Shown here: positions 15,101-53,767 of the stretch, one piece after another
Position numbering within the stretch: position 1 is the stretch's first letter
Layout of the letters: each line of letters starts with the position of its first letter
NCBI GenBank assembly: GCA_032622095.1
Contig: CP136067.1
Coordinates: forward strand, 125,957,030-126,021,029
Source: Siphonodentalium dalli
Taxonomy: Eukaryota; Mollusca; Scaphopoda; Gadilida; Siphonodentaliidae
Direction: 5' to 3'
Length of the DNA: 64,000 bases
The notes under the pieces: model-generated
What the model saw: the letters and a program-made list of their open reading frames with translations, nothing else
Databases searched by the model: none
What the model was told of the DNA's origin: nothing
Made by a program: the position numbers and the translations under genes

Positions 15101-15180
15101 ATGTGTGCATTTTCTCATACCAAATCAGTAGGAATACTATGGATTCCGCTGCTTATAGCATGTGTTTTGTTCTGTCAAAG
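15101..15180 (+). CDS. Exon 1: start codon and signal peptide
   Basis: The exon encodes 26 residues plus two bases: MCAFSHTKS, then a hydrophobic core (VGILWIPLLIACVLFC), then Q. This is a typical signal peptide. The donor is AG|gtgaga at 15181. It ends in phase 2, which is what exon 2 needs (one base, then the frame of TCC GCG GCC). The joined sequence gives a small-residue SSAAG stretch suited to signal peptidase cleavage. This exon is too short to be seen as a long ORF; it was found by searching upstream for a phase-2 signal-peptide exon. An in-frame ATG further 5' is not apparent. Confidence 0.8.
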
Positions 15181-18100: not shown

Positions 18101-21100
18101 CAATGCATTCTCTTTTATATGCGAGTCTCCCAAGCAACCCAGAATATGTGTAATTCTTACTAGCATTTGAACATCGTCGACGTTATTTGCCATGATTGCA
18201 ATTGTACGTCGCTTGGCGATGAATGATGGTTTTGAATTTTTTATATTGGTTGACCGATTGTAAATATATATGCCTACATGTATAGGCGTAATTGTCTATT
18301 AACCTTTCGCAATGTGCGTAACTTATCAACATAACCCTCGACCTTGTTACCCCATGTGGTCAGGAGTCGTACTATTTTTCGCTTAGTTTTAATTTTGCAC
18401 ACTGACGGGTGCGCGAAAAATAGTACTGCGCGAATTTTAACACGGCGAAAGGTGTTTATTTAACACATTCTCATGTCCACCCTTTCAGTTCCGCGGCCGG
18501 ACCCATGCGGTTGAGCACACCAGAAGAGGTGGTCGAATGGTTTCAGGGTAAAGCCGTGATACGGTATATGATAAACATGACGGCGTGTCGCCACGAATAT
18601 CAGCCCAGCCTGCCGTTGTATGTGACGTCAAGTGACATGTTTATCGGAACGACCCTCAAAGTTGACGAACCACCTGTCAGCATGCTAGATACCTTCTTCA
18701 CTCAGGACATAAACGGAACTCGCTACAACCTTACAGGTAAGTTGATGAAGTACCGGTCAGCATGCTAGATACCTTCTTCACTCAAGACATTAACGGAATT
18801 CGCTACAACCTTACAGGTACATGTCGCAGGCCCCTGGGGAAATTACTAAAATACCAATATAGACTATACCAGTGTAAAGATTCCAATGGTCGATTTTGGC
18901 TAAAATGACACCCACTAACAAAACCCTAATCAATTCTAGAAATAGATAATTGCAGCCAAAATATCCTCAGGTGTGTCTTATTGGAAATGCAATTCCCTTC
19001 TATTTGATATATAACTCAGCGAAATTGAACGAATCGAAGTCGAGATATCATATAGGAAACTAGCCAAATCTCTAACGGAGAAATCGGATCGTATCTCCAT
19101 GTCCGCTCATTAGCCTTTGACCTAGTTATAAAATAAATATTTCGAGCAATAATTTGTCGCGAACGTGTACGTAAACGCGATGACATAACCTATAAATGTT
19201 CATATTTTTCCGCAAGTGATTCCGAAGCCATCCATTGTAACTTTTTTATTTCATCCGATGTGTTTGTGCCCAATTTTTCAAGTTTATTCAAACGAATTCC
19301 AAACGAGGAATGGATTATGTGCATTTTACGACAATCTATTGAATGGTTGAGGCTGAGTTGTCTAGCTTTTAAAATCGGGGTAGAATTGACACCCATTTTC
19401 CTGGTAAAATTCAGATATAAATATGAGTTTTTAACGATTACTGATTTGTAATGTACATTGCGAAGTTCCACAGCTCATGTACTAGTTTTTATCCACCGCT
19501 CACTATCTCTATTGCTTACACAAAGCCTGCCTAATAAACGTTACGTTTATTACGTCAATGTAGCTTTATAATGTCAACGTACCTTTATTAGGTTAGTACT
19601 ACTTTCATGACGTAATTGCATATGCAAATTGCGCAGATAACTAGGGACGCCAACGTCATTGTGATTTTGGGACATTTTTATCGTACATAATTCACCGCAA
19701 TTGATAACAAATTCGTAAACAGATATGTGTTTTCGCTCTAAAACATCTATAAACCAGTAGAATACAAGGCCAGCTTAGAACGACTATTAAAAAACCAACG
19801 AACTCTTTCCCTCTAAGCAGCACTCCGGTTTTTGTACGTCATGAATGCTAATTAGTTTGCTTGATCTAATAAATGTAAGGGCGTCATTGGAGTAACCAAT
19901 GTAAACTGAGAAACATGACATATTTACTTGACAAAAGGGAAGTTTTGTGCGATGGATAAATAAAATATATAGCTAATGTTGTCACTTAAACTGTTTATGT
20001 CCGCTCGGGGGATTTGGCATCTATATGACTAGCCAGAGCCTCGCCCAATATATGGTCAAATCCCCCTCACGGACATAAAGGCCCGATTCGTCATCTCAGG
20101 TTTAAACCTGGTCTACGTAAACCTCTAGGTTTAAACCGCCGTGAGTCAGCAAAATCCGTGGTTTAAACCCGCGACCGCAGGTCTAAGTGACACATTCGTC
20201 ATCTCTGGTTTAAACCTGGTCTAGCCAGACCAGTGGTTTAGCAGTAATGTCTCTCTATCGTCGAGATAAATAATCGTACTTTCCTAATGCGGACCGCCTC
20301 ATTTTATTGATTGCGGAAATCAATAATTACGACAGCGACCATATTTTGATTGGAAATTTATAAGCGAGAATCACTCACACCTATAAAGCATATGGGGATA
20401 AGTTTTTGTCAATTTCGAAAATTTGTTTGCGTTTTATAAGCTTAAACCGGCAACTAAACCATCTAATTCGGCGGTCCAGCTAAACCAGCTGTACCGAGGC
20501 TAAACTTGAGATGACGAATCCGTCTTTTCTTCATCGCGGTTTAGAATTGTCAACAATCAATCAAAGGGTGGAGCTGTAAATTATCTCGAGTGGGGGCGTG
20601 TCTAAGTGGCGGCTGCCGACTGGTGTTATCATGTCACAGTTGATTCATTCGCACGCTAGCTTTGCTCAGATATGGACATGTTCCTTCAATAAGATTTTTA
20701 CTACCTTGCAATTGTGTGTTTTTTTTTGTTTTTTTTTGGCTTGTGGCAATCACAAATACTGGTGTTTTCTACGAATTCATTTGAATGGTTCAACGTTTTA
20801 ATTTGGCACCAAAACCATGCTACTCCATGCCCAGATATGCTATACACATAGTTTGCAATCCTAAACTTATATTGCTATACGAGTCAAATTTGATAACATA
20901 TTTTGATGTAGATCATGTCACAAAGCTCTACTCTGGCTCCGCCCATAAATTCCTATAATATTCCACCGTTCAAAACCTGGGAACTTTTTGATATTATGCA
21001 CGACGGAAAATTTATTATATTGGAAAAAAGCAACGCATGCAATATGGTTGCCCACTTCAAACAGTTCAGATGTCACTTCTGGTGTGCACTCATAAGCAAA

Positions 21101-24100
21101 TTGCTTTTACTTGCCTGACCTCTTGGTCCAGTATTGACCCGATTATGGAGACTTTATTCAGCGTCAGAATGGCCTGTGGCCCCTTCGCACGAAATGAGCC
21201 TGCGTCAAATTTACGCACTTTTGATCATTTGAACATTTTAATTTAAAAAAATACTTAATTCAATTTAAAACAAAAAGTGATTAATATATATTTTAAATAT
21301 TGTTTCTTGTTAGATACAACTCCTTACTCTTATTTTCAAATCAGTTCAAGTGTAGACGAGTTGCGAACAGACAAACGGACATACAGATCCTATACCCTTT
21401 AATATATACAGATATAAATGCAAATACACCAAAGTTTGTCTTTGCGGGTAAAGCATCGTGTAGAACATCTATCACACACAAAGTGATAAACATCGCGCGA
21501 AACTCGTGCTGATAGACATGCCCTTTGTCAGACGATTTAAACCCACAAAGAGATCGGATTAATGGTCCAGGAGCGATACTCATTTCTCAATGAATAAATC
21601 CATTGAGCGTGCACGTGTTCGCGATCATTTATGACATGTCAGTAACCATTATATCGGCTTTTTGTCCGATTTGTAAGAGGGTAGTTTGACTGCTTGCTCA
21701 TATCACCGACTCGAGTTGTCAATTAGCTGGAAACTGAACGACAAAAACGCCCCCTTAGACCCGGTTTGGCTGGACCGCCAATGTAGGTTTAAACCAGGTT
21801 TAAACTCGGAGGTTTAAACCTGAGATGACGAATCCGGCCATACAGTTTAAGCGACGACACCAGGTACATCTCATATATATATTTGAAGACCTCTGTATGT
21901 TTGTATGTTTGTATGTATGTTTGTTTGTCATTTATACAAATCTACGATTCTCGACAGATCGGGACGAAACTTGGTACGTGTGTGTAGTTTGACCAGGCGG
22001 TGAACGTTGTCGTATTGGCGAGCCCGTGCTGCGCCCACTTCGCGCATGCGCAGACGAGATCTCGGAAACGGGTGGAGCTATCGACTTGAAATTTGCTATG
22101 TGAATGTATCTTGCCCCGGATACGAATTTTATCGGGTCGCCGAGCCCGTGTGACGTCAGCTTCGCGCATGCGCAGACCAGATCTCGGAAAAGGGTGGAGC
22201 TATCGACTTGAAATTTGGTATGTGAATGTATCTTGCCCCGGATACGAATTTTATCGGGTCGCCGAGCCCGTGCGACGCCAGCTTCGCGCATGCGCAGACC
22301 AGATCTTGGAAACGGGTAGAGCTATCGACTTGAAATTTCGGGCTGGGTAGAGCTATCGACTTGAAATTTGGTTTTGAATAGCCCGGACAACGTCGGGCTC
22401 ATCGGCTAGTCTCATATATATTTTGAAGACCTCTGTCTGTTTGTCTGTCTGTCTGTTTGTCATTTATACAAATCTACGATTCTCGACCGATCGCGACGAA
22501 ACTTGGTACGTGTGTGTAGTTTTACCAGGCGGTGGACGTTGTCGTATTGGCGAGCCCGTGCGGCGCCCGCTTCGCGCATGCGCACACGAGATCTCGGAAA
22601 CGGGTGGAGTTATCGACTTGAAATTTGCTATGTGAATGTATCTTGCCCCGGATGCGAATTTTATCGGGACGCCGAGCCCGTGCGACGCCAGCTTCGCGCA
22701 TGCGCAGACCAGATCTCGGAACATTCTCGACCGATCGGGACGAAACTTGGTACGTGTGAGTAGTTTGACCAGGCGGTCAATATGAGCTCATCAGATTTCA
22801 GATCCGAGATCAACTTTTCACGTGCCGAGGTCAAATCTGTTTTTACGCCGTTTTGCGCTAATATATTTCAGTTCTGTGCTCACAAATCGATTCGATATAG
22901 CGCGAATAATAAATTGCCAGTCATATAATTTGCACGGTTAGAATATGTGGCGCTTCCTCCTTCCAACGATGTATCACACGCCTGTGTCCGTTTAAAGTGT
23001 CTACCTTAATTATCGGGAAAAACGCAGGACCATGCTTCAGTGATCGAAAAACATTCCGTAAATATATTACGCCGTCGAGAGATCGTGACGTGATCGCGTT
23101 TAACTCTTAACCGGCCGATGTCGCGTTAACTCATCACCAGCCGAGGTATCCGCAAATGACATTGGGCAATATATATATCTCGGAAACGTGTGGAGCTATC
23201 GACTATACGAATTTTATCGGGTCGCCGAGCCCTGCGACGCCAGCTTCGCGCATGCGCAGACGAGATCTCGGAAACGGGTGGAGCTATCGACTTGAAATTT
23301 GGTATGTGAATGTATCTTGCCCCGGATACGAATTTTATCGGGTCGCCGAGCCCGTGTGACGCCAGCTTCGCGCATGCGCAGACCAGATCTCGGAAACGGG
23401 TAGAGCTATCGACTTGAAATTTGGTTTTTTAATAGCCCGGACAACATCGGGTTGGGTAGAGCTATCGACTTGAAAGTTGGTTTTTGAATAGTCCGGACAA
23501 CGTCGGGCTCATCGGTTAGTCTCATATATATTTTGAAGACCTCTGTTTGTCTGTATGTCTGTCTGTCTGTCATTTATACAAATCTACGATTCTGGACCGA
23601 TCGGGACGAAACTTGGTACGTGTGTGTAGTTTGACCAGGCGGTCGTCGTTGTCGTATTGGCCAGCCCGTGCGACGCCCGTGCAGCGCATGCGCAGACGAT
23701 ATCTCGGAAACGGGTGGAGCTATCGACTTGAAATTTGCTATGTGAATGTATCTTGCCCCGGATACGAATTTTATCGGGTCGCCGAGCCCCGTGCGACGGC
23801 AGCTTCGCGCATGCGCAGACGAGATCTCGGAAACGGGTGGAGCTATCGACTTGAAATTTGCTATGTGAATGTATCTTGCCCCGGATACGAATTTTATCGA
23901 GTCGCCGAGCTCGTGCGACGCCAGCTTCGCGCATGCGCAGACCAGATCTCGGAAACGGGTGGAGCTATCGACTTGAAATTTGGTTTTTGAATAGCCCGGA
24001 CAACGTCGGGCTCATCGGCTAGTCTATTATATATTTTGGAAGATATGTCTGTCTGTGTGTCTGTCTGTCTGTCTGTGTGTTCGCGATGGACTCGAAAACG

Positions 24101-27100: not shown

Positions 27101-30100
27101 GTATTCATAGTAATAATTTTGATGCCCATGAAAAACGTAAGATTCCCTGGCACTAAGGGGGTGTTTATACATTACCCGGCGAAGATCGCATTCGCTTTAG
27201 CCGGCAGCGATAACAATAGAGTGTTTATACTTCGCCGGATAAGAATTACGGCTATCCGGATACTCAGCTATACGGTTTTCAACTTTTGGATAAAAATGAT
27301 TTAGTACAAGCACCTGATTATCATATGGATTCTAATTCGCTCTGCGGTTAAGTTAGATGTTTATCTGGGGTCATGCCGTCATGGGTGATTTCCTTTCAAC
27401 AATTAACTCGAACACTATTATTGTGCAATCGCTGATAGACCAGCCCGCTTTTCACCTGTGTATATATTGGTCAGTGTGCCAGTTTGATTGTCTCTAATCA
27501 GCTGTCAGGTCGGTGGTCACGCACCTTGGTTATAAGCTATTATTATAAATACTAACCGATGATGGTACACGTACTCTGCATGTGCATGATACATTTGTTG
27601 CGCATTCGAGGGAATTAATTCATGTACATGTATGTCCATATATATATATATGGAAAAAATGGGATGGCACGTTTCTGTGGATACAAACTTAATGGACAAT
27701 TAGTTCAATAATCTAAATCCGAGTGCGCCGTGGACATATTTACACAGGGACGGGTCTAGAGGGCCTGATTTGGAGGTGTGGGACTGTTCATCTTTGGAAT
27801 TTATCGACCGACCGTGGTTATGGCCAGGTGTGAGAATTTGTTTTAATCTGAACCCTGAAAATTGCAAAATCCTAGCATCCAGCCTTAAGATTTCCAATTG
27901 TTGGACATTTTCCAAACTTGACGCACCTCTAATAAGGTTGGATCATTTCCAACTGATGGTCATTTCAGTCCAACAATTTGGTAAAAAAATAAGCAAATGT
28001 TGCCTAAAGAAATCACCAATAACAAATTGTTGAAAATAAAACTACGAGAACAATTTCAACATATTGCTGATATCAAATGTCCAACTATTGCCGTGTCAGG
28101 TATGAAATTTCCAGCTTTTGAATATTTTGATTAAAGTTGGGATGAGACACCCCCATCGCCACGGCCCTATATACATGGACATGGTGAACGCCCGAGTAAA
28201 ATGAAAAACATATTTTATTGTATAAGGTGCAAACGGAAAATGTGTCACATTTGATTCGCGATGTTGAAACTTATATATATAATATAAAATCCAATCCGAA
28301 TGATTAGACACCAATTTGTAGATGTATGCGACGAAAAGATCTCAAAACTGACAATGGCCATGCTTTTGGTGCGACACTCACTTCACAGGCTGTGTGTGAA
28401 CCCAAACAAACCATTAACAATGTTTTTTAAATATCTATAAAATTACCAATAGCAATACCTGGAAGTTTGAGTTGGATATTAATAATTTCGGCATTTCCAT
28501 TTCTAAAAAGTTTCATTTCACTATACTGCCAAACCATATCTCTAACAGAAAGCGGCTAGATGTTTACACGTGTACAGCAATATCATATTGCAGTTCAGTG
28601 AGAACTAAAACGAAAACTATTAACAAGTAAAGGAGACACATGAATATATGCGTATCTTCGCCGGCGATGTGTAAACACTCTGCCCAACCTTCGCCGGCTA
28701 ACGGGTTCGCCGGGTAACGGCTTCACCGGCTATGTGTAAACGTCACCTAAACATACAAAATAAGTCTGTTAAAGAATATAAGAAAAAATTATTAAAATTG
28801 TAAAAAATTGTTAAAAATTGTTAAAAATAATAACAAATGATGAAAAATTGTTAGGCCAATGCATTCTCTTATATATGCGAGGCGACCTATGGTCGGCTCG
28901 CATATATAAGAGAATGCATTGGCACAGGGTATATGGGTTGATACAAAAATCGGACCTGGCACTCAAAGGGTTAGTGACTTTATTGGTGACGTAGGTTCCT
29001 TGCACTGGTTTTTAAATTGATTTCGTGTTTGTAAACTAATCCAGGTGCAGCAAAGAGAACGGTGTATTCTTCACTGGACATATTGAGCGGAATACTCAAT
29101 GTTTATGTAACCGACACGGAGCAGAGCGATTTTTCTCGCATTCTTGGGTCAGCGAAAATGGAATGTCCGATGACAGGCAAAGACATGTGAGTGAAGTATT
29201 CCTGTATTTGTACTGACGAATGGCAGTTTTATATAGAGCTTAATCCATAGAGGCAATACGAGCTTTTTATATGCATTATAAGTTTCAGATTCTGTAGAGT
29301 TATCACCCGGGTCAAGTGGTCCTGCTAATGTGCTATGATGCTGGTTAGTCCTGCTGAATTGCTATGATGCTGTTAGGGCAAACTGATGCTGTTAAGAAAA
29401 ACTACCCATATTTTTTTTAAGTTGTCATTTTCGCTGTGTTCTGATAATCTGAACATATATAGAAAAAGCCGTTATGTGTATAAAACTTCAAGAACATATA
29501 TATTGCGAAACAGTTTAATTCTGGTTGTATTAGTTGTTGCAGATCGACTACGACCAATATGCCTGTTCGTGTCGTTTTGCACACACAAGCGCAGCCATTA
29601 TTAATATGTATGTATATATATATTCTGTTCTTGAGTGTTTCATACACACACACTGATTTTCCTAAAATCGTTCGGTTAGCCAAACACCGCGAAAATAACA
29701 ACTTTAGAAAAAATAACGGTACTTTTTCGTAATGGTATCAGTTTGCTATAATAGCATCATAGCATTTCAGCAGGACCACCAGCATCATAGCACATTAGCA
29801 GGACCACTTGACCAGGGGTGATTATTCTCAGTGTATTTCTTTGGGTATATTTTTCTACATGTATAAATTATTTCGAATTATTCATTACTGTAACAAGTAC
29901 AAAACAGATGCATGCATCAGATCACCCATGAATTAATTTACAAAGAATTAATCACGAAAATTTGGGAAATACTGTAAATTTAATATTGAAAGTTCAAATA
30001 ATAATAGAAAATAACATTTGAGGTATATAAATATCTATATATGATGTCAATGTTTCATTGCGTTATGTCAATAAATAATCAAATTCGTTACCCGTGACTG

Positions 30101-39100: not shown

Positions 39101-42100
39101 CATGTGGATACGTAACATGATTTCCGTATTCAGTGAAGGACAACTCTGTGTTTTATTTTACAAAAAATAGCCCGATATCTCTCCCATGAATTCTGTCATC
39201 TGTCTTGCAAGATATTTTTTTTTTAATTGCTACGATAACCTTTTTTCTATTTCAAATATTTCTCAGCTCTGACATACTGTAGCTCTAGCAGATGGAAGAA
39301 GCTTATTTACTAACATTCGCTATGTCATGGTCTGTTGTGTTGAAAAATGGTTTAAATTAAACATTTTGTGTGTGGCAACCAAGGGGCATAACTCAATGAG
39401 CAGTTGTACGAATAAGATAAAGTACATACATTTGATTACAACTACGATTTTTGTCGACAGTAAACATGCTTGATGGGCCATATACCAAAGATAATGGCTC
39501 AACATACATGTAGATTTGAAGTAAGGTACAACCTCCTATGCCGATTGTCCAAACAATTTCTGGAAATTGTGTATTGTTACCTTAGTACAGAAAGGGATAA
39601 CACCGAAATAGTGAAACACTCGAAAGGTAATTTCGAGCTTACCAGGCAACACACACAAAAAAGGAAAATAATTTCAATGACATCATTGGTTTAAACATTA
39701 TTGATTTAACGCTTTCAGTGCCAAGTACGATTTTTGTATCAACCCATATTTCCTTGATACAAAAATCGGACTTGACACTGAAAAAGTTAAAATTCGTGAG
39801 TAGTAGGTATATACGGAGCGCAAACGCGCTGACCTGGGTGCAACCCAGAATACCCGACAGTCCTTGTCCGAAAGTATTCATTTTTTAAATCGAATATTTA
39901 CTTTCCTTGCAATGATGTGTGGACCGGTCGTCGGCAGCGAATGTAGTCAGGGACTCCGCACTTACTGGATATTTGTCCATGCATGGGGAAGTCCGGGACA
40001 TGTGTCAATATGCAGGACGAACACAACGACGGAAGGAACCCAGGGACAGATTCTTCAATACGAGATAGGGAGCAGAAACCTCCTTACGCCCTGCCAATGA
40101 CGAGGACGACTCCATTAGATATACACATCGCATAACGGCAAATCTACAGATATAATCTTAAGATACAAACGCGTGGTCGGTCACTCGACACGAATGCCCG
40201 GAGCAGGTCTGCAAAATACTATGGACTGGCTGACCACACGAAACAATCTGTAGATAGAATCAAGAAGATAGTACCTGGCAAACTCCATACAGCGCCCTAT
40301 ACGCTATCGCTGCGATATATCGCTGCCACAATGAGTGTACTTTGCAGACGATAAATCTATTTCTAAATATCGTCGCGGAACTGTATTTACTACTATTTAG
40401 TCACCTATTATCTTGTTTTGACCACCACATTTTTTTAAAGTTTGCATTAATGGTAATTCGTTCGGTATTGATAAGAACAATATGAACTGAGCCAGACATA
40501 GACAATTTTAATCATAAAACATAAGAACTAAAAACACGTGAGAATTCCTTACCAATTAATGTCATTATGGCAGTGGTATCTCAGCGGAGCGATGGGATAT
40601 AACTCTGCCTGGAGTTTGAGTACCTGTTTGGCTGATCTCGGATCCGCGTCGACGATCGCTCGACAAGAAAGCCTTAGGCGCGCCGCGTCGGAGAGAAGTA
40701 TAAGTAACCCGAAAATTCGTATTAAGTATGCAGTATCCTCTGAGACATCCAGCAGTCAACACAGTGCACGTTCCCACAACGACGACAGCAGATACACCTC
40801 GAGAAGAAAAGACTAGCAAGCGAGATGGCCGATAAATCAAGGTAAACTAAAATGCTTGTAGTTCTGAACAACGCATCCCCGGTGTATCGACGACACGGCA
40901 CACCCAACGACAGCAGACGACAGGCCGACATACTCAAATAGAGATCAACGACTCAATCCACGAAGGCACAAGATATCCCCGATTCACGCAGACGACAGGA
41001 TGACGCACTTAACATATGAAGACACGAGAAGCCCCACGATTCATGCAGACGACAGGAAGACTCACCAAACTAGGAGAAGCCATACCGACTACCCGAAGAT
41101 ATCTTATTGAACTGTTTGTAAATAAATGATCAAATCATTTTAATGTCTGAACGTGATATGTCCCCCGTCTTGGCACAGTTGTAGCCAATATACTGTTTAT
41201 ACTCGAAGTCGATATATATTTTGTTCACAAGGACCGACGCATGCAATTGTTTATATTTGGGCCGACCCCCACCTTTTTATGTTGTTCTATAAGTGTATAT
41301 GCATGTGATAATTATCCTTCAAATTTCAATGTAATGCTTGTAATGATTCAATGATTGTTTTGTTAAATGTGAACCAGGGGTCGGTCTGTCTATGCATGTA
41401 TATGTACTTTCTTTATATCATATGATGTGTGATTTATGAGGAATAAACTATTTTAGTTCCTTGTAACATTTACACATATTATAATTGATCATTGACAAGA
41501 AGGCTATTATTTACAAACCGCAGGTACACGAGTGAGGGCTACGACATGCGCTTCAGTCTGAATCGATCGGCATGCGACGGAGGAGAACCAACGCAGAACG
41601 AGTACATATGGGCCGGCCATATACCAGGTACTATACTTACAGTACAACATTCATATCATGAACCAGTTATAATCACAGCTGGACACGTGGTTCGATCAGA
41701 TAATGTGCCACTGACATGTATATGACAGCTATGATACATGTGGAGGGCGGGGTTATATTAAGAAAAGGTACCGTAAATGTTTGAATTATACGAATCTGAA
41801 CGATTTGAGAAATATGCCAGTGTCTGCATGAAATATTCAAGAACATAATACATATTAAAAAACCTTGCTTATAAAATAATAAATTTTATTTTCTAGGCAA
41901 TCTAAGCAATCGATTAAAATATAATGGGTTTTCCCCTTATTGCATGAGCTTTTATGTACGATACATCATATACATGCGCAGTCATTTAATTGCAATGACA
42001 TAATTGATTCGGGAATATAAAAATTAATTGTTTTGGGAAAAATAATTCCCATATTCCTTTGATTATCAGGATTAATTTTCCCACCCTCCCTCCCCAATAG

Positions 42101-45100
42101 TATGTTAGCAGCTTGAGAGTTATGTTGCATCTCACAGCAATATTAAACTACATATAGGCATACTTAGATTCTGAAGAACATAAATTATTTAACGATCCTA
42201 TTTGTCGTCTATTATGTGAGCAATAATCAAGGCTGCACAATTAACCACGCCTTTAATTTAGTTCGTGCTACGAACGGTTACTTCAACTATCATAATAAAG
42301 ACACGTGCTCGGAACCTCATGTATGGCTGCGGGCACACGTACCACAGTGGCGATGGCATAGTAGGTGTGACAATTTATTATGGTGGAGTTTGGTGACAAT
42401 TGGTCGTCGTAATTCTGTACCATAGCTAGCCATGTTGCCCACTGAGTTTCCGCACAATGAGTTGACTGGACCAATTGACCCATTGCGTTTCACCAAAGTT
42501 GATCTCTACTCATTACGTTTTTGCTATATTGTATTCTCTACGATATATATAATTGCTCGATCGATCGTCCAGAATTGTGTTTGATCGTGGCAATCCCTCA
42601 CTCACTGACATATCATGTAGTACGTTTTATTGATATGATCTCAATGCTTGTTTATCTACATATATTAATTTCATGCGTATTAAGACAGTTCCACAATTGC
42701 GAATGAGAAACTGTCTCCTTTTTTTGAACAAGCAATCCCTCCTGGGTTCAATATTTGGTTACACAGTATATACATTTAGCTAATGTCTTAAGGCATACAA
42801 ATAATTATAACTAATCATAATCCTAATCGTGGACGTTATATTTGCGGAACGAGTGGCTGCGGACACACGTACCACAGTAGCTATGGCAGAGCAGGTGTGA
42901 CAATTTATTATGGTGGAGTTCGGTGACAATTGGTCGTCATAATTAATAAACCACAGCAAGCCATGTCGTCCGCTGCATATTCGCACAACTAGTCTTCCAA
43001 AGTTCGTAATAATCAGCCTTTTTCTTGTTTTGGTCCTTGTATATATATAGTTCGCTTTGTTTATTCTAGACACTTTCTCTCAACTGCATTTCCGCCAACA
43101 TTTCCGACACAGCTTCATCGCCCCAGCTGATAATGCTAGCGGAATAATGCGTAGAACTAAACGTCGCAAAATAAAAAACGCATTTGGGGAACTGTCTGAA
43201 TACGTATGAAATTAATATAAGTAGATAGGCATGTATTGAGATAATATCAATAAAACTAATTCGTGTATGACATGTGAGTGAATGAGGGATTGACACGGTC
43301 AAACACAATTCTGGACGATTGATCGTGCAATTATATATATCGTAGAAAGGCGTAATGAGTAGAGATCAACCTTTGTTAAACGCAATGGGTTAATTGGACA
43401 CTATCATTGCGTTGCGAAAGCTCTCTATTTAATACGACAATGCGTGGATAGGCATGGGGAGTCAGATTCTTGCTCTGCACGATCTACCAGATTAAAGATG
43501 CCACATATTGCTTAAACATGGCAAAACGATTTCTCCCCCAAAACGCACTCAAAACCCTTTATTTCGCTCTCATTCACAGTCATCTCGTGTACGGCTTAAT
43601 AATATGCGGCCATACAAATATAACCGGATCATTATTCAAGTTTCAAAAGAAAGCCATACGCATTATATGCAAGACGAAATATCGTAGCCATACCGAACCA
43701 CTTTTTAAGAGGGAAAAGATCCTCAAACTGCATGATCTGTATCATCTCCAAATCGCATTATTTATGTATAATTGGAAAAAATAAAACTCTCCCATCATCA
43801 TTCGATAAAACATTCAAATATACACCCATATCTATAACCACTGTCGGATACCCGTTTAGGTTCGGACATTCCAAGATGGCGGCGCCAACTAAATCAGATA
43901 AACGGCAAGTGTATATATTGTCTCCAAGCAGCCATCAACGACATCTTTCGGTGATACACCTTGAAACAGTTATGTAGGAATTTGTATGCCCAACACATAC
44001 GTAACACGCCTTTTGCATAACAGGCATGTGAATTGTTGTATTTGGCGTGTCAATTCGTCATAATTTTTCGAAATTTTATCGAGGCGGCGAAATGTTCGCT
44101 TTTTCGTATTTTTCTGGCCTTGGGCTCATGCATCCGCAAATTTATGTATTGTTGTGGGTAGATTAGGTCACCACACATCCTCGGAATGCAAAACCGGCGA
44201 TATTTTTATTGTCTAACTCCGAAAAATGACCTTTGAAAATTTCAAAATGTTCAGGTTCGGATTCGCAACATTCGCGATGATTTTGTTCAGGTTCAGACAC
44301 AATATTCGTTCAGGTTCGGACAAATTTGGTTCAGGTTCGGACGCATCAAAAACTTCGCATAAAAATGACACACCGAGGTACAGTCGCGTTCTTATTGCGT
44401 TTTTGTGCATTTGATTTTCTTCCATTCGTAAAAGAAACGATAAATGGGGAACACGAGGCATGGTTTTAGCCCACTCGTGAATAATTTGGGCGGACTTTCT
44501 TATTTTATGCGCGTGAGATCTATGCGATCACGTGATACCCCTCCACATCCACATACGATACCACGAAGGTCGCCGATGAGCAGATAGCTGTCCATAACAT
44601 AAGTTACACGGCTTTTTGATGGGATACTGTGTGGTATGCCCCGGTAGAGGCTCGTATCCCCCGAGGCGATCCCCCAGTCCCTATTGACAATATATTCCCA
44701 GACATAAAGCGCAGAAACGAGCCACGAACAGTAATTATATTTTGTTAGACTGCTTATACGATGAGTGTGATTATATAGCTGTTCCCACAATTTGCCCATA
44801 AATACTTGCTGATAGATAGACAATATATATTTTGTATCAATAATTGGATGATATATTTGGGTATTCACACGAAACATATTCTTTTCAATATAAGCCTTAT
44901 GTGTTTTGCCTCATTTCTAAATGTTGAATCCAGTTACAAGTTAACCATTTGTCACACGACTATTATGCCGGACTATTAATTAGAGCCCGAACATGTTGCG
45001 TTCTATTCAGCACTATGCGAACATAGAGAATACCTATATATGGTTTGCCGAATAATACCTGCAATATGCGAATCTTCACGAGCGGCGATATTTCAGGAAT

Positions 45101-48100
45101 ATATTATTCGAGAAACCATATGTGTTCTCTGTATGTTATGCTTATGGTAAGCAATTCTGCAAAACTACAAGTATTTATTTATCAAAACAAGAATTTAGAC
45201 GGCGAATTAGCGAAACTTATGCAAGCAACATCAGCTGTTCCGTTGGCAAATTAAGCATCTTTAAATTCTGGTGGAAAATTTCCTTCATGTGCTTAAGAGA
45301 ATAGTGCCTACCCAATGGTTAAATATTACACACATAAACCCAATTAACAAAAATGAATACGTAATAAAACGGGATCATTTGTTTTTCTATAGAACTTATC
45401 GCAGTAATAAACTATTTTCAGTCTTCCGCGGAATTTCGCGTAGTTTCATTGATAATACACGCGTCAATAATTGTGTACCCTTTTTTAAACAGAAGTATCT
45501 ACAGTGAGATAACGTTTGAAAATTATTATCCATGCCAAGGTCCTGACGAAAGAGAGCGCATCGTATGTCATTTAAAATTACAGCTATTTCATAGGGAAAC
45601 ATTTTACAAACAGCGCTTGTCCCCACACCCGGTTGTAACTAACAATCTGACTGACAACAACGTCACGTTTAAGTCATGCACCATGTCCCGTATAACTCTT
45701 GACAGTGGGCGTATAAAAGTACGTGAAACATCGTGGTTATGAATTACCCTTGAACTAGCAGTTTCACCAATCGTGACATTGTTCTAGCGCGCTGAGCTTA
45801 ATTGACGTCACCTAAAACAGGATCGATAGGTCTGCTAATGAATTATTCTTATTGGTGCTGATTGGTGTGAATTTATCTATAAAAAACTATAAAAAGCACA
45901 CCACATGGTAGCTATTGATGTGGAACAAAATCGTTAGCTCCTCCAACATCGTGGGATACTAGGAGATTTAATACCCGGATGTCTCTTTTTGAAACCTCTT
46001 GGCTCCGCCTCGGGGTTCAAAATCGAGAACCAGGTATTAAATATCCATGTATCCCCGATATTTCAGAAGATAAGTATAATACCACTGTTGCTCATATGTA
46101 AAATGTAATAATTCCCACTAGCTGGTTTATAGTAGACATTGCTCGAGAATATTCAACTGTGGCTTTTATCCCATTAATTCGGAGAATTTACCACCTATAT
46201 TTGGAAATTTCAGCTGCCATATTTAGAAATAACAAATTAACAGTGCATGTTCGTTAATAACACGCACAATAAGATCGAGACTGCACCTCGGCATGTCATT
46301 TATAGGTCAGGTTTTGATGCGTCCGAACCTGAACTAAAATTGTCCGAACCTGAACCATATTTGTCCAAACCTGAACGAAAATTGTGTCTGAACCTGAACA
46401 AAATCATCGCGAATGTTGCGAATCCGAACCTGAACATTTTGAAATTTTCAAAGGTCGTTTTTCGTAGTTAGACAATAAAAATATCGCCGGTTTTGCATTC
46501 CGAAGATGTGTGGTGACCTAATCTATCCACAACAATACATAAATTTGCGGATGCATGAGCCCAGGGCCAGAAAAATACGAAAAAGCGAACATTTCGCCGC
46601 CTCGATAAAATTTCGAAAAATTATGACGACTTGACACGCCAAATACAACAATTCACATGCCTGTTATGCAAAAGGCGTATTACGTATGTGTTGGGCATAC
46701 AAATTCCTACATAACTGTTTCAAGGTGTATCACCGAAAGATGTCGTTGATTGCTGCTGGGAGACAATATATACACTTACCGTTTATCTGATTTAGTTGGC
46801 GCCGCCATCTTGGAATGTCCGAACCTAAACGGGTATCCGACAGTGATAACCAGACAAGCCGGAAGTTTGATGATGACAAAACCGAAAACCAATTTCTCAT
46901 TAATACTACCAAAACACGCATTCCTCAATGTATGGAACTGCTTGAACACTTCGCACAAAAATTCTCCAAACAAAACACAATTCAAAAAGTATATCACCAA
47001 TAATCTATTATCACAATATAGTAATTATATCATATGTAAAAATCGAGAATGTAAATCCTGCAGAGTAACAAGTGGAAATTACTGAACTGTTATTGGCAGT
47101 CCCAACAAGTATGAGTCACCCTGGTACCCTCACCTACAATGGGCAATTTAATAATACATATATTTCCATGCACGTACATAACTAGCTTAGCCCTAACATT
47201 AAACACATATTCGAATGTCAAACTGTCGGATGTTGTAAATACTCATTATTCACCTATGAACGCCATCTTAATTAAACATTATGTTACAGGGTGACAGGAA
47301 GACGGCCTGCATTGGCCATGTCACCCATGGCTGCACATGTAAATTTGTACCACTGATGTATTGTATAAATGTGCAAATAAACATTCAAACATTCAGAGAT
47401 GCATAATCCGATTAAGCGCCCCTCAATTACTATTTATTTGGATTCGGGGGTAAAACATATTTGATTCGAGTGGAGGAACCCACCTATCAAAGATCAGAGT
47501 TATTAGATATCGATACTTGAAATCTATTAATTTTAACCATCGAGAATTATTAGTGGCCCAGTAAACAGTCGACGAGCCGACGGTATCGGGCCAAATTGCG
47601 GATGAAAATGGATGCCTATAAAATCAAGAGGCTTTCAATTGACAATAAGGCCAAATTTCGTCGAACAACATGTTGATAAATAACACGTTTCGGGCAATTT
47701 TATACTATAGTTGACAATGGTTAACATAATTTTTTGATGATCCCACACAGCGGGCTACATCACACAATTCACCATCTGGGGACCGCATTCTTCGTGGCCT
47801 CATCTGCTATGAAAGACATAGACTCAGATTGAAGTTCCCAAATGGTGAATATTGTGATGTACACCCATTGGGAACCTCGATTATACAATGTGTCGTCTGC
47901 CAATTTGGGGATATAGAAAAACTAATCTAAAAAAGAAATAGAATCTATGTGAAGAATTTCTATTGACATTTAATAATAAAGAATTTTTCCTGAGAAGATG
48001 AGTCCAAAACAGAATGAGGTCGCCAGACGGTGAATTTAGTGATGCTAGCCAGATATGCAGATTTTAATGCAATAATTGGATAGCGGGGGGGGGGGGGTGG

Positions 48101-51100: not shown

Positions 51101-53767
51101 AAACAGTCAATTCAATGTCAAATTGGGTAAAACGGACGGATTTCGACGAAATTTGATACATAGGAGTACTTTTGTCCGGGGAGTGTTTTGGACGGGTCAA
51201 ATCGTGACCTCGGCGTGACCTTGACCTTTATAATGGTCAATTCAAGGTCAAATCGGGTAAAACGGACGGATTTCGACGAAATTTGATACCTAGGGTTACT
51301 TTTCTCCGGGGAGTGTTTTGGACGGGTCAAATCATGACCCCGACCTGACCTTGACTTTCAAAATAGTATATTCAAGGTCAAATAGCGCCTTTCGCCGGAA
51401 AGCAGGTGGGAAACAGTCCGGACGAAGTCGGGCCCACCAGCTAGTGTAATAAAAAAGACAGCTTGAAGAATGTAATGTATAACACGAGAAACGGGAAAAC
51501 TTGATATATGGAAGTATCCAAATTTCCCACATGGAATTTGAAAGCTAGTTTATATTATAATTATATTATAATTTATATTTATGGCTAATAATATGATCTT
51601 GGTGGCGTTACCATTTCTGACTATATATGGTTTTCTTGTTACATCTGCATCACATTTTTACGGAAGCATGGAGCCGCCACATACAAAAATAAATTTCACG
51701 CCCAGATCGGCGTCAATCTCTACCAGAGCGCGCCAGTGATACTTCCTTTCTGGCTATGTTACCGGCTGGGTACTAGTCTGTGGTTTATATATTTAGCATG
51801 GGATTTTCCAGCAAAATTGGCGAAAACCGATCGCCCGAAAGTAAATTTTCCTATGTGCTTTGAGAACAATTCCTGCATTAAATCTTAAAGACAGAATTTA
51901 GGATCAGAGACAAGGGGGGGGGGGGTCTGCATTTTTTTACAACACTAGGCGAGGGTGGGTGTGTGGCTCAGCAACACAATTTTTCCTGACTCCGTAAATG
52001 TTTTCCTGTAGTAATTTTTCGTAAAAATAATACTATTATGTAATAGGTATGAACTTAACTCTTAGTAGGGGGGTTTGAGTTCATTGTCAGTTAATAATGA
52101 GGGATGACACCAATAGGTAATAAAAAAGTCAGTTTGCTAAATGTTTTCATCAAAGATCTACCAATGCACATTGACATGGAAAGGCTCAGGTTTAAATAAT
52201 TCTATTAAAAATCGTTTATTCAACCTGATACAAATGAAAACATAACACAATAATAGATTCATCAAATAAAAGTAAACTCTACTAGTAAAAATAGACAATT
52301 CAAAAAACCATAAAAACATAAAACATAAATGTGTTAAAACAAACTTTGAAACCGATTTCAATGCTGTTCAGTACACGGGACTAGAATCACCTCCACATGG
52401 GAGCTCTGAAAGTTGGAACGATTTTCGATGAAAAACATGGCCACCGGCAGCCATCTTGGATTTTACTGTTTGCACCACTTAATCATTTAGCACACCATAC
52501 AGAGCTTATCCCTCAACCATTCATCACCAAACTGCATACGAATCCTCGGTGTGACCTCTCAATGGGTGCCAACCATTATTTTTTATTTTTTTTTACGAAT
52601 TGTGTTAAAATCATGGCTACCAGCGGCATCTTAGATATTAATCTTTGTATGACTAAATCCTTTGCTACACCTTACGGTCACATTTCTCATTCAATCATCA
52701 CCAAACTTCATATGGATATTCGGGATAACCTCAAGACGGAAGCCTCCCCTTTTCCCCCCGAATGTGTTCAAAACAAACATGGCCGCCAGCAGCCATCTTG
52801 GATTTCAAATGTGAATCCATCAGCACAACCTACAGCCCACATTTATTGGAGCATTGCTTTGAAACTTTATAGCCTTATTGGTAAATCAAAAGTATGAATG
52901 CTTCTATAATCATGATATGGAACATAGATCGGTAAGATCAGGACAACTAAGTAAAATAGTCATTTGTAACAGTTTGAAGGGGTGGGTCCCTATCCCAGAA
53001 TCGGAAAAAATAAACATTAGGGGGGGGTGGGGTACACAGAGGGCGAAACAAATAAAACAAAAGCGCCTAGTGTCCGGAATTTTTTTCATGACCACCCCCT
53101 GTCAGAGCGGTAGTTTTGTTCACGATTTTCGCAAGCTACTCGTCAAAATTGCAGCAAATTAGAACTCTTGTGTTTAATTTGCCACGCGTGTTGTCGTGAC
53201 ATTGTCGTCCATGTGCGTTTATACTTTTGTGTTGATAAAATAATCGGAGAACCAAATCACACCGTTTCGCAATATAGTTCTTTGATTCTGGTGGGACTTT
53301 CCAAACTTAAGGCACGAATCACACAAATTTTAATCGATATTTAATGTGTTTAACAAGGGCAGCATGTTGCTCTACTCTCTTAGTGAATGTCTTAATATCA
53401 CGGAAGTCCACCAAATGTTGGTAAAATGTCGCCGGTAGCAGCGGTCTTACCGAGTCATCAAGGGGGGTAAACCCTGCACGGAATTTGGATCGGCGTATAT
53501 ACAATCCTCCTTTCTCTTTGTCTCATTTCAGTGTTACGGCAAAGCAACGATGGAGGTCACATTGTGTTTAATCCACGCACAGAAGACGCGTTTTACGTGT
53601 ATGATATGCAGGTCTACACGAACGAGACTGCTGTTAGAATCACAACGTACAAGACAGCGAAATCAAATGGGCAGATCGTACACTCGCCAGATCTAACGTG
53701 TACATTCAACAAAGAACTGAAGATTACTTTACGGGAGTTTCAATATTTATCTGCTCATAGTGTGTAG
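15101..53767 (+). CDS. Secreted two-domain VirK-like glycoprotein, six coding exons (whole gene)
   Basis: The gene is assembled from six exons whose junctions are all phase-compatible (2, 1, 2, 2, 1), giving about 294 residues. Residues 1-26 form a signal peptide. Domain 1 spans about residues 36-155 and domain 2 about 174-277. Each domain has a basic/hydrophobic segment ending in an N-glycosylation sequon plus cysteine (NMTAC, Cys60; NRSAC, Cys199) and a later cysteine (Cys150; Cys273). Further sequons are at Asn102, Asn107 and Asn247. There is no other membrane segment, so the product should be secreted through the ER, with Cys60-Cys150 and Cys199-Cys273 as likely disulfides. The pattern of an N-terminal helix, a strand with 'sequon-Cys' and a C-terminal strand ending in Cys resembles the VirK-like family (Pfam PF06903), which occurs in bacteria and invertebrates. 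Family assignment is from memory of the pattern; the biochemical role is unknown. The 38.7-kb span is nearly all transposon-filled intron. Gene structure is confident; family is moderate. Confidence 0.8.
15321..15400. mobile_element. Short hairpin MITE (ATATATGCGAG family)
   Basis: This imperfect palindrome is built from a CAATGTATTTCATTATATAT arm and an ATATAATAGCATGCATTG arm and is followed by GCACAGGG. The same layout, with perfect arms, is at 28850-28929. Half-copies are at about 15250-15290 and 18100-18135. Confidence 0.65.
16661..16959 (+). repeat. 50-bp minisatellite, about six copies
   Basis: Units of 49-51 bp start at about 16662, 16712, 16763, 16812, 16861 and 16910. Each contains GTCTGAAGCGACGGTTTAGA, a TTACATTAGTGACG segment and CAGGTTCCTGGAC. 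A related single phrase (GTGACGTAGGTTCCT) appears near 28990, just before exon 3. Confidence 0.85.
17232..17370. mobile_element. Long imperfect palindrome, about 139 bp
   Basis: Arms of about 60 bp: TTCTATTTTATACGTAATTT pairs with AATTCTGTATAAAATAGAA, and AATTTGATTTGAGC pairs with GCTCAAATCGAATT, around a short centre at about 17297-17306. Fold-back MITE. Confidence 0.7.
17921..18025. mobile_element. Fold-back MITE, copy 2 of the GGGGTACATG family
   Basis: The left part AAACATTGGGGGGTACATGG and the right part CCATGTACCGCACGATAGTG are inverted. The layout, with a central AAC-CCGCGAAGCGGAGCC hairpin, parallels 8150-8290. Confidence 0.6.
18489..18736 (+). CDS. Exon 2: first half of VirK-like domain 1
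   Basis: The acceptor is the pyrimidine-rich ccctttcag ending at 18488; the donor is ACAG|gtaagt at 18737. The exon encodes SAAGP, then STPEEVVEWFQGKAVIRYMI and NMTAC, and further on the NGT and NLT sequons. The ATG at 18505 lies inside the exon and need not be the start, because the frame is open back to the acceptor and joins the signal-peptide exon. The last 80 bases, including the donor, are duplicated directly downstream (18739-18818). Confidence 0.85.
18739..18818 (+). repeat. Tandem copy of the exon 2 end and splice donor
   Basis: These 80 bases repeat 18659-18738 with few mismatches. They reproduce the last part of exon 2, the ACAG/GT junction and the first intron bases; the copy's donor is gtacat instead of gtaagt. 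The period (80) is not a multiple of three, so reading through the first donor reaches an in-frame TAG at 18766-18768. It is therefore a decoy exon fragment and not extra coding sequence. Confidence 0.85.
19994..20079. mobile_element. Hairpin element abutting the GGCC TIR element
   Basis: TTTATGTCCGCTCGGGGGAT pairs with ATCCCCCTCACGGACATAAA across about 35 bp. It ends exactly where the next element begins (20080). Confidence 0.65.
20080..21839. mobile_element. TIR element(s) with GGCC-GATTCGTCATCTCAGG ends
   Basis: The left end GGCCCGATTCGTCATCTCAG pairs with the right end CTGAGATGACGAATCCGGCC at 21820-21839. A second, related pair lies inside at about 20190 and 20498-20522. The TTTAAACC motif recurs next to each end. 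This looks like either one 1.76-kb element with an inner copy, or a 330-440-bp MITE plus separate fragments. No transposase is recognisable. Confidence 0.55.
21869..22409 (+). mobile_element. Helitron-like non-autonomous element A
   Basis: It begins with TCTCATATATATATTTGAAG after an A, continues with a TATG/TTTG microsatellite, then three core units with a 122-bp period, and ends with a GCCCGGAC-AACGTCGGGC hairpin followed by CTAG and a T. The 5' TC, 3' hairpin plus CTRR and A/T target are hallmarks of Helitrons; the microsatellite plus tandem cores resemble mollusc 'pearl'/HINE elements. No Rep/helicase is present. Confidence 0.7.
22410..23519 (+). mobile_element. Helitron-like element B, interrupted
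   Basis: It starts directly after the CTAG of element A with TCTCATATATATTTTGAAGA and ends in a GTCCGGAC-AACGTCGGGC hairpin and TTAG. Core units occur at 22450-22780 and 23160-23450. About 380 bp between them (22780-23160) is unrelated and not recognised; it may be captured or inserted DNA. Confidence 0.6.
23520..24022 (+). mobile_element. Helitron-like element C
   Basis: It shares the TCTCATATATATTTTGAAGA start, a CTGT microsatellite, three 122-bp cores and the GCCCGGAC-AACGTCGGGC hairpin with CTAG. It abuts elements B and D with no spacer. Confidence 0.7.
24023..24652 (+). mobile_element. Helitron-like element D, with a different core
   Basis: It starts with TCTATTATATATTTTGG and a CTGT microsatellite. 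Its cores differ from A-C: each carries TGACCTTGACCTT and TTCAAGGTCAAA. It ends in GCCCGGACGAAGTCGGG and CACCTGCTA; the final G of CTAG is missing, probably lost at the junction with the next fragment. Confidence 0.65.
24653..24790 (+). mobile_element. 5' fragment of a Helitron-like element (E)
   Basis: A TATATATATTTTGGGACTTC start with a TTTG/TCTG microsatellite and TAGCTATGGCCGGGAAAACT matches element F, then the similarity ends. No 3' hairpin follows. Confidence 0.55.
25903..26114 (+). mobile_element. Complete 212-bp Helitron-like element F
   Basis: A|TCTAATATATATTTTCGG at the start and GCCCGGACGAAGTCGGG with CTAG|T at the end. One core only (TGACCTTGACCTTCAAAATG). It is the smallest complete member and defines the family's ends. 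Confidence 0.75.
26275..26541 (+). repeat. Tandem duplication, 135-bp unit, two copies
   Basis: Copies at 26275-26409 and 26410-26541 begin AGAGTCGATAGCAATTCCCA and end in ATGACCACTCT-GTCAT with few differences. No function is apparent. Confidence 0.85.
27157..28747. mobile_element. Harbinger-like non-autonomous element, TAA target duplication
   Basis: The left end GGGGGTGTTTATACATTACC and right end (GGTGACGTTTACACATAGCC on the other strand) are related inverted repeats, flanked by TAA on both sides (27154-27156, 28748-28750). Further subterminal 'CGCCGG' segments repeat inside. A 3-bp TWA target duplication is typical of PIF/Harbinger. No transposase was recognised. Confidence 0.6.
28850..28929. 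mobile_element. Perfect palindrome, 25-bp arms
   Basis: CAATGCATTCTCTTATATAT-GCGAG is mirrored exactly by CTCGC-ATATATAAGAGAATGCATTG around a 15-base centre. It belongs to the same family as 15321-15400 and also carries the trailing GCACAGGG. It lies 115 bp before exon 3. Confidence 0.85.
29045..29186 (+). CDS. Exon 3: second half of domain 1
   Basis: The exon encodes AAKRTVYSSLDILSG, then ILNVYVTDTEQSDFSRILG and SAKMECPMTGKD. It starts in phase 1 and ends in phase 2 at the consensus donor gtgagt (29187). Cys150 here is the likely partner of Cys60. Two acceptors 6 bp apart, ccag ending at 29044 and gtgcag ending at 29050, are both in frame. The first gives Gly-Ala-Ala-Lys and the second Ala-Lys, so two residues may be optional. 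An actaat branch-point-like motif lies just upstream. Confidence 0.8.
29303..29821. mobile_element. 519-bp TIR element, TTA target duplication
   Basis: The ends TCACCCGGGTCAAGTGGTCC and GGACCACTTGACCAGGGGTGA are inverted and continue through CTGCTAATGTGCTATGATGC for about 75 bp. The flanks are TTA on both sides. It sits about 115 bp after exon 3. No protein. Confidence 0.75.
31681..31930. mobile_element. Fold-back element, about 250 bp
   Basis: CTATAACATTCTGACCAAAG pairs with CTTTGGTCAGAATGTTAGAG at the inner arms, and GTTACGAGCATATGCTAG with the right-hand TAGCATCTGCTCGTAGC at the outer ends. Each arm is about 100 bp. Confidence 0.75.
32458..32580. mobile_element. Fold-back element, about 120 bp
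   Basis: TTTCTCTCATATGATATTTA is mirrored by TAAATATCATATGAGAGAAA around a short centre. The outer AATAGAATATG motif recurs at about 32225. Located 370 bp before exon 4. Confidence 0.75.
32951..33025 (+). CDS. Exon 4: interdomain linker and start of domain 2
   Basis: This 75-base exon lies between a weak acceptor (tggtacag) and a consensus donor (gtaagt at 33026). It starts and ends in phase 2. It encodes SAFFYADTTQPASSLYVTSY and then DWLK. The alternative frame also has no stop but does not match the phases of the flanking exons. A Harbinger-like element begins only 32 bp after the exon end. Confidence 0.75.
33058..34781. mobile_element. Harbinger-like transposon, degenerate, 1.72 kb
   Basis: The ends GGGTACGTTCATAGGCTGGC and GCCAGCGTATGAACGTACCC are inverted (about 55-bp TIRs including GCAAACTGCAAAAATGCCA) and are flanked by TTA on both sides (33055-33057, 34782-34784). 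On the minus strand at 34344-34640 an open frame contains RIRWVRTWLNEE, reminiscent of the RxWWVRPWL motif near the start of PIF/Harbinger transposases. The rest of that protein is not recognisable. It inserted 32 bp downstream of exon 4. Confidence 0.6.
35500..35900 (+). repeat. Dispersed repeat with GGTTCGGCCC motif
   Basis: Two related blocks at about 35500-35570 and 35660-35740 share GATGGTTCGGCCC(A/G)GT(A/G)TGAGAA and AA-CATCCTA(A/G)C-TCTAG. A third diverged copy is inside the element at 27.8-27.95 kb. It may be a SINE-type repeat; no A/B-box pair could be confirmed. Confidence 0.45.
35970..36155. mobile_element. Short inverted-repeat element
   Basis: GTTGGAAAACATGGGTGGC and GGCGCCACCCATGTTTGAAA are inverted around about 140 bp of GC-richer sequence. 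MITE-like. Confidence 0.5.
37425..37825 (+). pseudogene. CR1-like LINE reverse transcriptase C-terminal remnant
   Basis: The translation has SEIQRKATKLVREIKTLFY, then CRRFRGDLIEVYKW, and in other frames further on RTRGHNNKLQM and TQRVVNSWNFLPD. This series is the typical end of CR1/jockey-clade reverse transcriptases (QRRATKL, RRLRGDLIEVYK, RGH-KL, RVVNxWNxLP). Stop codons and frameshifts divide it. It is 5'-truncated and dead. Confidence 0.75.
37971..38003 (+). repeat. ATG/GAT microsatellite
   Basis: About ten ATG triplets in a row. Confidence 0.9.
38047..38440 (+). repeat. Tandem duplication, about 185-bp unit
   Basis: Two copies begin TTTAAAATACGTATCAATTG and share CCGCGAATTCGGGGA, CACCGATCAGCAC and GTGGCTGACTCGGCTGT. 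The second has a 20-bp extra segment; a third partial start follows at about 38430. Confidence 0.8.
39708..39790. mobile_element. Hairpin element, about 83 bp
   Basis: CTTTCAGTGCCAAGTACGAT pairs with ATCGGACTTGACACTGAAAA across a short loop. The GATACAAAAATCGGAC half also occurs after the palindrome at 28930-28960. Confidence 0.75.
41524..41627 (+). CDS. Exon 5: core of VirK-like domain 2
   Basis: The exon encodes YTSEGYDMRFSLNRSACDGG and then EPTQNEYIWAGHIP. The acceptor is aaccgcag ending at 41523; the donor is CCAG|gtacta at 41628. It starts in phase 2 and ends in phase 1. The segment GYDMRFSLNRSAC aligns by eye with GKAVIRYMINMTAC of exon 2 (aliphatic strand, sequon, Ala-Cys), which is the main evidence that the protein has two related domains. 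Confidence 0.8.
42310..43000 (+). repeat. Direct repeat of about 150 bp (42310-42470 and 42850-43000)
   Basis: Both copies contain GTGTGACAATTTATTATGGT and GGTGACAATTGGTCGTC. The first lies just outside, and the second inside, the fold-back element at 42470-43402, so part of its interior was probably copied from flanking sequence or vice versa. Confidence 0.7.
42470..43402. mobile_element. Fold-back element with about 220-bp arms
   Basis: The left arm 42470-42690 and right arm 43187-43402 are inverted: CCCATTGCGTTT with AAACGCAATGGG, GTTGATCTCTACTCATTACG with CGTAATGAGTAGAGATCAAC, and CGATCGTCCAGAATTGTGTT with AACACAATTCTGGACGATTG. No coding capacity. Confidence 0.8.
43455..43838 (+). pseudogene. 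CR1/L2-like LINE RT remnant, 5' part
   Basis: The frame reads ALKTLYFALIHSHLVYGL, then FQKKAIRIICKTKYRSHTEP and LHDLYHLQIALFMYNW. This is the end of the thumb region of CR1/L2-clade reverse transcriptases (LYYSLIHPHLxYG, LQKKAIRxI, SHTxPLF). A length change in an A-run near 43780 shifts the frame. It is 5'-truncated and is interrupted at 43839 by a 3-kb DNA transposon; the rest continues at 46846. Confidence 0.8.
43839..46845. mobile_element. 3-kb long-TIR DNA transposon inserted in a LINE
   Basis: Perfectly inverted ends CACTGTCGGATACCCGTTTA and TAAACGGGTATCCGACAGTG continue as arms of about 520-590 bp (43839-44405, 46248-46845). A 5-bp direct repeat ATAAC flanks it (43834-43838, 46846-46850). 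Inside the arms a CAGGTTCGGA phrase repeats several times. The 1.85-kb centre has no recognisable transposase. CAC-type ends with a 5-bp duplication would fit Transib; a 3-bp (AAC) reading would fit CACTA. Class is undecided; boundaries are firm. Confidence 0.8.
45937..46075. mobile_element. Fold-back MITE, copy 3, nested in the 3-kb transposon
   Basis: AGATTTAATACCCGGATGTC and the right-hand AACCAGGTATTAAATATCCA are inverted, with TTTGAAACCTC and GGGGTTCAAAA inside them. It is the same family as 8150-8290. Confidence 0.7.
46846..47395 (+). pseudogene. CR1/L2-like LINE, 3' part and tail
   Basis: The LINE frame resumes exactly after the transposon: TRQAGSLMMTKPKTNFSLIL, then VWNCLNTSHKN, then TQFKKYITNNLLSQY, matching the usual W-N-x-L and FKKxLxxxLL end of these ORFs, stopping near 47083. 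About 300 bp of 3' UTR follow, ending in AATAAACATTCAAACATTC, a CR1/L2-style short tandem 3' tail. Confidence 0.75.
47752..47876. mobile_element. Short inverted-repeat element
   Basis: GCTACATCACACAATTCACC and GGTGAATATTGTGATGTACA are inverted. A related half (GACGGTGAATTTAGTGATG) is at about 48025. Confidence 0.55.
48080..48500 (+). repeat. G-run block plus pearl-like core fragment
   Basis: Two poly-G runs of 13-15 bases (about 48085-48098 and 48130-48146) and the phrases GACCAACAAACAAATTTTTC and CAATGAGTTTGGCTTAAAAC match the block at 5.8-6.3 kb. It is followed by core-repeat sequence with AAATCCAAGATGGCTGC. Confidence 0.7.
50681..50732 (+). repeat. 10-bp G-rich tandem repeat (ATGGGGGATT)
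   Basis: Five units give five runs of four to five G separated by 5-6 bases, a pattern able to form a G-quadruplex on the + strand (intronic RNA sense of the host gene). Confidence 0.85.
50870..51444 (+). mobile_element. Helitron-like element G, 5'-truncated
   Basis: Four tandem cores with a 123-126-bp period, each with GGATTTCGACGAAATTTGAT, TGACCTTGACCTT and TTCAAGGTCAAA, end in GTCCGGACGAAGTCGGGC and CCAGCTAG|T. It is the same core type as D and F. The start with a microsatellite is missing. Confidence 0.7.
52390..52880 (-). repeat. Diverged antisense pearl-like core units
   Basis: Three units carry CATGGCC(A/G)CCAGCAGCCATCTTGG-type sequence, the reverse complement of the core motif at 8-10 kb, at about 52436, 52614 and 52782. 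The 166-residue open frame across them is repeat read-through. Confidence 0.7.
53532..53767 (+). CDS. Exon 6: C-terminal half of domain 2 and stop
   Basis: The acceptor is the strong ctcatttcag ending at 53531. The exon completes a Val codon across the junction and encodes 77 residues, including DAFYVYDMQVYTNETAVRIT, SPDLTCTF and a short charged tail, ending at TAG (53765-53767). Cys273 is the second conserved cysteine of domain 2, and Asn247 is a sequon. The open frame has no start codon at its 5' end, which supports it being an internal/terminal exon. Confidence 0.85.

Follow-up and report, generated by a model that had tools for sequence, protein, structure and literature searches.

No function is known to us for the VirK family (Pfam PF06903), and VirK-like proteins are annotated in invertebrate databases. 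Bacterial VirK, represented here by y4wH of Sinorhizobium fredii pNGR234a, is a secreted protein of one short domain (about 145 aa), the first strand of which ends in a conserved cysteine preceded by Asp-Leu (VTVTVDLGMC). A glycine follows 14 residues after this first cysteine, and a second conserved cysteine lies near the end of the domain. A description from 2005 restricted VirK to plant-associated bacteria (PMC554113). VirK is a type 2 secretion substrate in Dickeya, where a virK mutant showed no difference in symptoms on the plants tested (PMC9007343). Our search of the literature found no paper on animal VirK. A clear animal VirK branch with a two-domain secreted form would, if true, offer a tractable route to what the domain binds.

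Here, we analyzed a 64,000-nt window from the scaphopod Siphonodentalium dalli (C7:125957030-126021029 in a 2.23-Gb genome of nine contigs), for which a sequence-only reading had proposed a secreted protein with two tandem VirK-like domains encoded by six small exons over 38.7 kb. The genome is that of an animal, with 35 Wnt exon matches (best E 1.1e-63). Rebuilding the exons from the DNA placed them as in that reading, with the same span (15101-53767, + strand) and the same counts. Positions of the features within the window are as follows:

15101-15180, + strand: exon 1, start codon and predicted signal peptide (MCAFSHTKSVGILWIPLLIACVLFCQ..), donor CAAAG/gtgaga in the right phase
18489-18736, + strand: exon 2, N-terminal part of putative domain 1 with C60, IRYMINMTAC and sequons N56, N102 and N107
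18659-18818, + strand: 80-bp tandem duplication of the exon 2 end, 73 of 80 sites identical
29045-29186, + strand: exon 3, end of putative domain 1 (C150), fitting phase and splice sites
32951-33025, + strand: exon 4, linker and start of putative domain 2, fitting phase and splice sites
41524-41627, + strand: exon 5, first strand of putative domain 2 with C199, MRFSLNRSAC and sequon N195
53532-53767, + strand: exon 6, remainder of putative domain 2 with sequon N247, C273 and the stop codon
53977-53982, + strand: candidate polyadenylation signal AATAAA, a consensus match only

Joining the six exons (80, 248, 142, 75, 104 and 236 nt, in order) yields an open reading frame of 885 nt, or 294 aa plus stop, with no frame lesion. 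All introns are GT-AG, phases agree at five of five junctions, and an in-frame TAG lies upstream of the exon 1 ATG. Except for the adjacent 80-bp tandem copy of the exon 2 end, each of the six exons occurs only once in the 2.23-Gb genome, and a genome search for paralogues returned the gene itself as its sole match. The locus is very probably a single-copy protein-coding gene, with six exons scattered in repeat-rich DNA and predicted to be spliced together in vivo, that encodes a secreted glycoprotein of two related domains resembling distant relatives of bacterial VirK. It illustrates how a gene can escape ORF- and HMM-based annotation when its exons are short and lie isolated in a repeat-rich 2.2-Gb genome.

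The 294-aa product carries four mature cysteines (C60, C150, C199 and C273) and five sequons (N56, N102, N107, N195 and N247). An export signal, which is a VirK trait, is present as the hydrophobic N-terminus encoded by exon 1 (core mean KD 2.96, judged by hydropathy only). The signal peptide, the cysteines and the five sequons of the sequence-only reading all check out as sequence facts, and at this level there is good support for secretion, for the sequons and for a gene of several exons.

Agreement of phase at five junctions had also been offered as support for the exon model. The agreement was borne out, yet in-phase joining alone is weak evidence, since we counted 103 open candidate exons and 1,964 stop-free, in-phase three-exon chains that fit between exons 2 and 6 at the splice thresholds needed by the model. 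Among these chains, the six-exon model ranked 489th for splicing, 10th for coding potential and 22nd for a two-domain VirK score (102nd when the VirK scoring used a bacteria-only profile); when the three scores were added together, it came 3rd.

The exons differ in how firmly they are placed, with exons 1, 2, 5 and 6 being solid. Only two first exons upstream have both the right phase and a signal-peptide-like core, and exon 1 clearly outdoes the other (mean hydropathy 2.96 vs 2.18). Exon 2, with a perfect donor, leads the candidate exons of the region by a wide margin (combined splice score 13.8, against 9.5 for the runner-up). A VirK block scan picked out exon 5 independently, placing it second among 22,352 open windows, and this exon is present in 15 of the 20 top chains by coding and VirK score; exon 6 is an open terminal exon of 77 codons with a strong acceptor (tctcatttcag). 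With the remaining exons fixed, exon 3 was the best of five alternatives, and its coding score lies in the top 2% of open segments; exon 4 was the only alternative once exons 3 and 5 were fixed. Codon usage discriminates poorly in this genome, where kinase exons themselves reach only 0.06-0.12 bits per codon. Given this weak test and the rankings, exons 3 and 4 are the best choice on offer, resting mainly on the joint ranking and unproven.

This difference leaves room for a model in which exons 1, 2, 5 and 6 are right and the middle is not, because exon 3, exon 4 or both are another candidate or because an extra exon exists. We regard such an error as rather unlikely. In its favor, many chains fit, exons 3 and 4 have no independent support, and two chains with 37643-37740 and 40753/40756-40841 outscore the six-exon model when splice, coding and VirK scores are combined. 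Weighing against it are the model's own high ranks, the preference for exon 3 when the other exons are fixed, and the nature of the rival exon at 37643-37740, which overlaps an open frame in another reading frame that, by its translation, resembles the end of a retroelement (its neighbour has no Pfam match).

Turning to the family assignment, VirK-like genes do occur in this genome, where two loci match PF06903 at E 1e-4 and 5e-4:

C2:88.394 Mb (88393954): L014, VirK-like gene, 22.4 bits
C2:88.467 Mb (88467449): L015, VirK-like gene, 20.4 bits

These loci lie 73 kb apart, on a different chromosome from the window, and resemble exons 2 and 5 in the core [V]R[YL]x[VL]xxxxC, whereas they differ in scoring just under the curated PF06903 cut-off (23.7 bits) and in keeping the Asp-Leu. 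The second half of L015 was not found.

The HMM search of the joined protein against PF06903, which the sequence-only reading had named as a check on its claim, went against formal membership. Neither the 294-aa protein nor either half gave a match at E<=10, so the cut-off was not reached, although L014, L015 and bacterial VirK as positive control (111 bits, E 2e-32) were found in the same way. Against VirK profiles built here, the joined protein scored about -1 bit when the profile was limited to bacteria and 0.4 bit when L014 and L015 were included, and the bacteria-only profile gave 20 bits for L015 and 14 bits for L014. HMMER and hhalign comparisons of the joined protein with the VirK profile were not significant, with hhalign being uninformative on single sequences, and a search of the genome with the bacterial VirK protein gave no match. 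Structure models were too poor for a fold search (AlphaFold pLDDT 37 for the bacterial VirK alignment and 39 for exon 2).

At a finer scale, VirK likeness emerged weakly but repeatedly, from largely independent lines. Exon 2 scored above all 228 other open segments against a profile of the VirK N-half and beat 1000 of 1000 shuffles (998 with the bacteria-only profile). The high rank of exon 5 in the block scan concerns the ungapped first-Cys VirK block under the profile that includes L014 and L015, where only a Cys-rich simple repeat scored better; the bacteria-only profile placed it 24th. When either half was added to the VirK alignment with MAFFT, its two cysteines fell on the two conserved VirK cysteines, one closing the first strand and the other close to the domain's end, as against 3 of 150 shuffles. 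In exon 5, as in L015, a phase-1 intron starts exactly 52 nt past the Cys codon, and the two share a glycine. This intron is absent from domain 1 (exon 2) and from L014, in which the domain continues in one open frame and the second cysteine is missing.

The first strands themselves are alike. IRYMINMTAC (exon 2) and MRFSLNRSAC (exon 5) match VRYSVDLKNC (L014) and VRLTLDLSHC (L015) without gaps, and GKAVIRYMINMTAC and EGYDMRFSLNRSAC may be degraded forms of the VirK motif G-x-x-V-x-[VLI]-D-L-x-x-C, with Asp changed to Asn. The pattern [IVLM]R[YFL]x[ILV][ND]xxxC occurs only in exons 2 and 5 within the six-frame window and only in L014 and L015 within 124 kb of other loci of the same genome; having been framed after the fact, this rarity is supportive and not a P-value.

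The scaphopod protein resembles bacterial VirK in its predicted secretion and in a short domain whose first strand ends in a conserved cysteine, followed by a glycine 14 residues on and by a second conserved cysteine towards the domain's end. It differs in having two domains instead of one, Asn (within a sequon) in place of the Asp before the cysteine, a degraded Gly-Gly turn and no Pfam match. What stands of the VirK-like label is remote similarity only, suggested by Cys register, motif, intron position and profile scores above those of shuffles; the match to PF06903 does not stand.

The second half of the original claim, two tandem domains, likewise met with mixed results. Both halves share the Cys pair and N-x-[S/T]-A-C, a motif for which exons 2 and 5 hold the only two occurrences in all six frames of the window. 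In each half, the VirK Asp is replaced by Asn, giving a sequon with Asn four residues before the first cysteine, and no other feature points as clearly to an origin of the two halves from a single domain. On the other side, a plain pairwise alignment of the halves was not significant, and exon 3 was not preferred by VirK score when domain 1 was scored alone (rank 61 of 71). Since the halves are dissimilar pairwise and the intron is missing from domain 1, the tandem, if real, would be old. We discarded a 12-aa match between the halves (QPSLPLYVTSSD/QPASSLYVTSYD; P 0.04-0.2), whose register does not agree with that of the domain repeat.

These mixed results could also be read as a real secreted glycoprotein gene in which at most one domain, encoded by exons 4-6, is VirK-like; the other half would be unrelated or too diverged, and the likeness would reflect convergence on a strand-Cys motif. 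The absent Pfam match, the pairwise alignment and the poor rank of exon 3 all agree with such a reading, as does the C-terminal VirK block (FLRYRI..KC), which gave no signal in an ungapped scan and was visible in gapped alignment only. We consider it unlikely in view of the Cys register and N-x-[S/T]-A-C common to both halves, and of exon 2, which by itself beats all shuffles against VirK. A pseudogene or a chance assembly of open segments in repeat-rich DNA, yielding no product, would suit the repeat-rich introns, the near-neutral codon scores and the failure to find a homologue of the whole protein, but is very improbable for a lesion-free frame of 885 nt with good splice sites, a signal peptide in phase, and a motif and intron position common to VirK-like genes.

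The explanation that we favor, with moderate confidence, is a single-copy animal gene for a secreted, N-glycosylated protein with two tandem VirK-like domains and a non-enzymatic binding role. In such a protein, the signal peptide would direct entry into the secretory pathway, and signal peptidase would remove roughly 26-30 residues from the 294-aa precursor. The mature chain may then fold into a pair of consecutive, highly diverged VirK-like domains, spanning approximately residues 31-157 and 158-290 and each presumably closed by one disulfide (C60-C150 and C199-C273, as the cysteine positions suggest). Both domains would be N-glycosylated, notably at the equivalent place, N-x-[S/T]-A-C, if these sequons are used. 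The protein would most likely work outside the cell through non-enzymatic binding, as a matrix, mucus or defence glycoprotein; bacterial VirK offers no firmer hint at its role. More speculatively, the gene might belong to an animal-specific branch of the VirK superfamily, perhaps derived from bacteria, in which tandem duplication and the Asp-to-Asn change put a glycan next to the first cysteine in each domain and so created a new class of two-domain secreted glycoproteins. We hold this wider scenario to be doubtful.

Several other matches were rejected. The sole Pfam/NCBIfam match among the exons, the halves and the whole protein, LIM_bind (E 0.16), arose by chance on an artificial join of exons 2 and 6, and a match to ribosomal S19 in a PDB sequence search was also due to chance. 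Viral contigs yielded nothing that could be confirmed, and a phage search gave two chance matches (E about 1). A search for the mollusc haemocyanin family returned no match and was uninformative.

The 80-bp duplication at the end of exon 2 bears on the splice donor of this exon. The present donor of exon 2, the strong consensus site ACAG/gtaagt, arises where the two copies meet and scores 8.1; the donor that ends copy 2 looks older and is weak, scoring 2.5. Reading through to the copy 2 donor meets a stop, and use of that donor would shift the frame. It seems that the duplication supplied a new splice donor in place of the former one and left the protein unchanged.

Further elements were observed in the window. 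Intron 5 contains a foldback-like element, consisting of a 504-nt inverted repeat (43839-44342 / 46342-46845; 97% complementary) with its arms 2.0 kb apart. A direct duplication of about 2,068 bp (98% identical) occupies 57790-61927. Introns of both VirK-like loci carry a dispersed repeat with units of about 122 bp, at 21902-23966 in the window and downstream of the exon in L015.

Elsewhere in the genome, at C2:149.83-150.59 Mb, a single-exon ORF of 281 aa with a kinase domain is repeated in tandem close to 100 times, in almost identical copies spaced about 2.4-2.9 kb apart. About two dozen cytochrome P450 domains are located on several chromosomes in single open frames of roughly 500 aa, making intronless P450 genes common in this animal.
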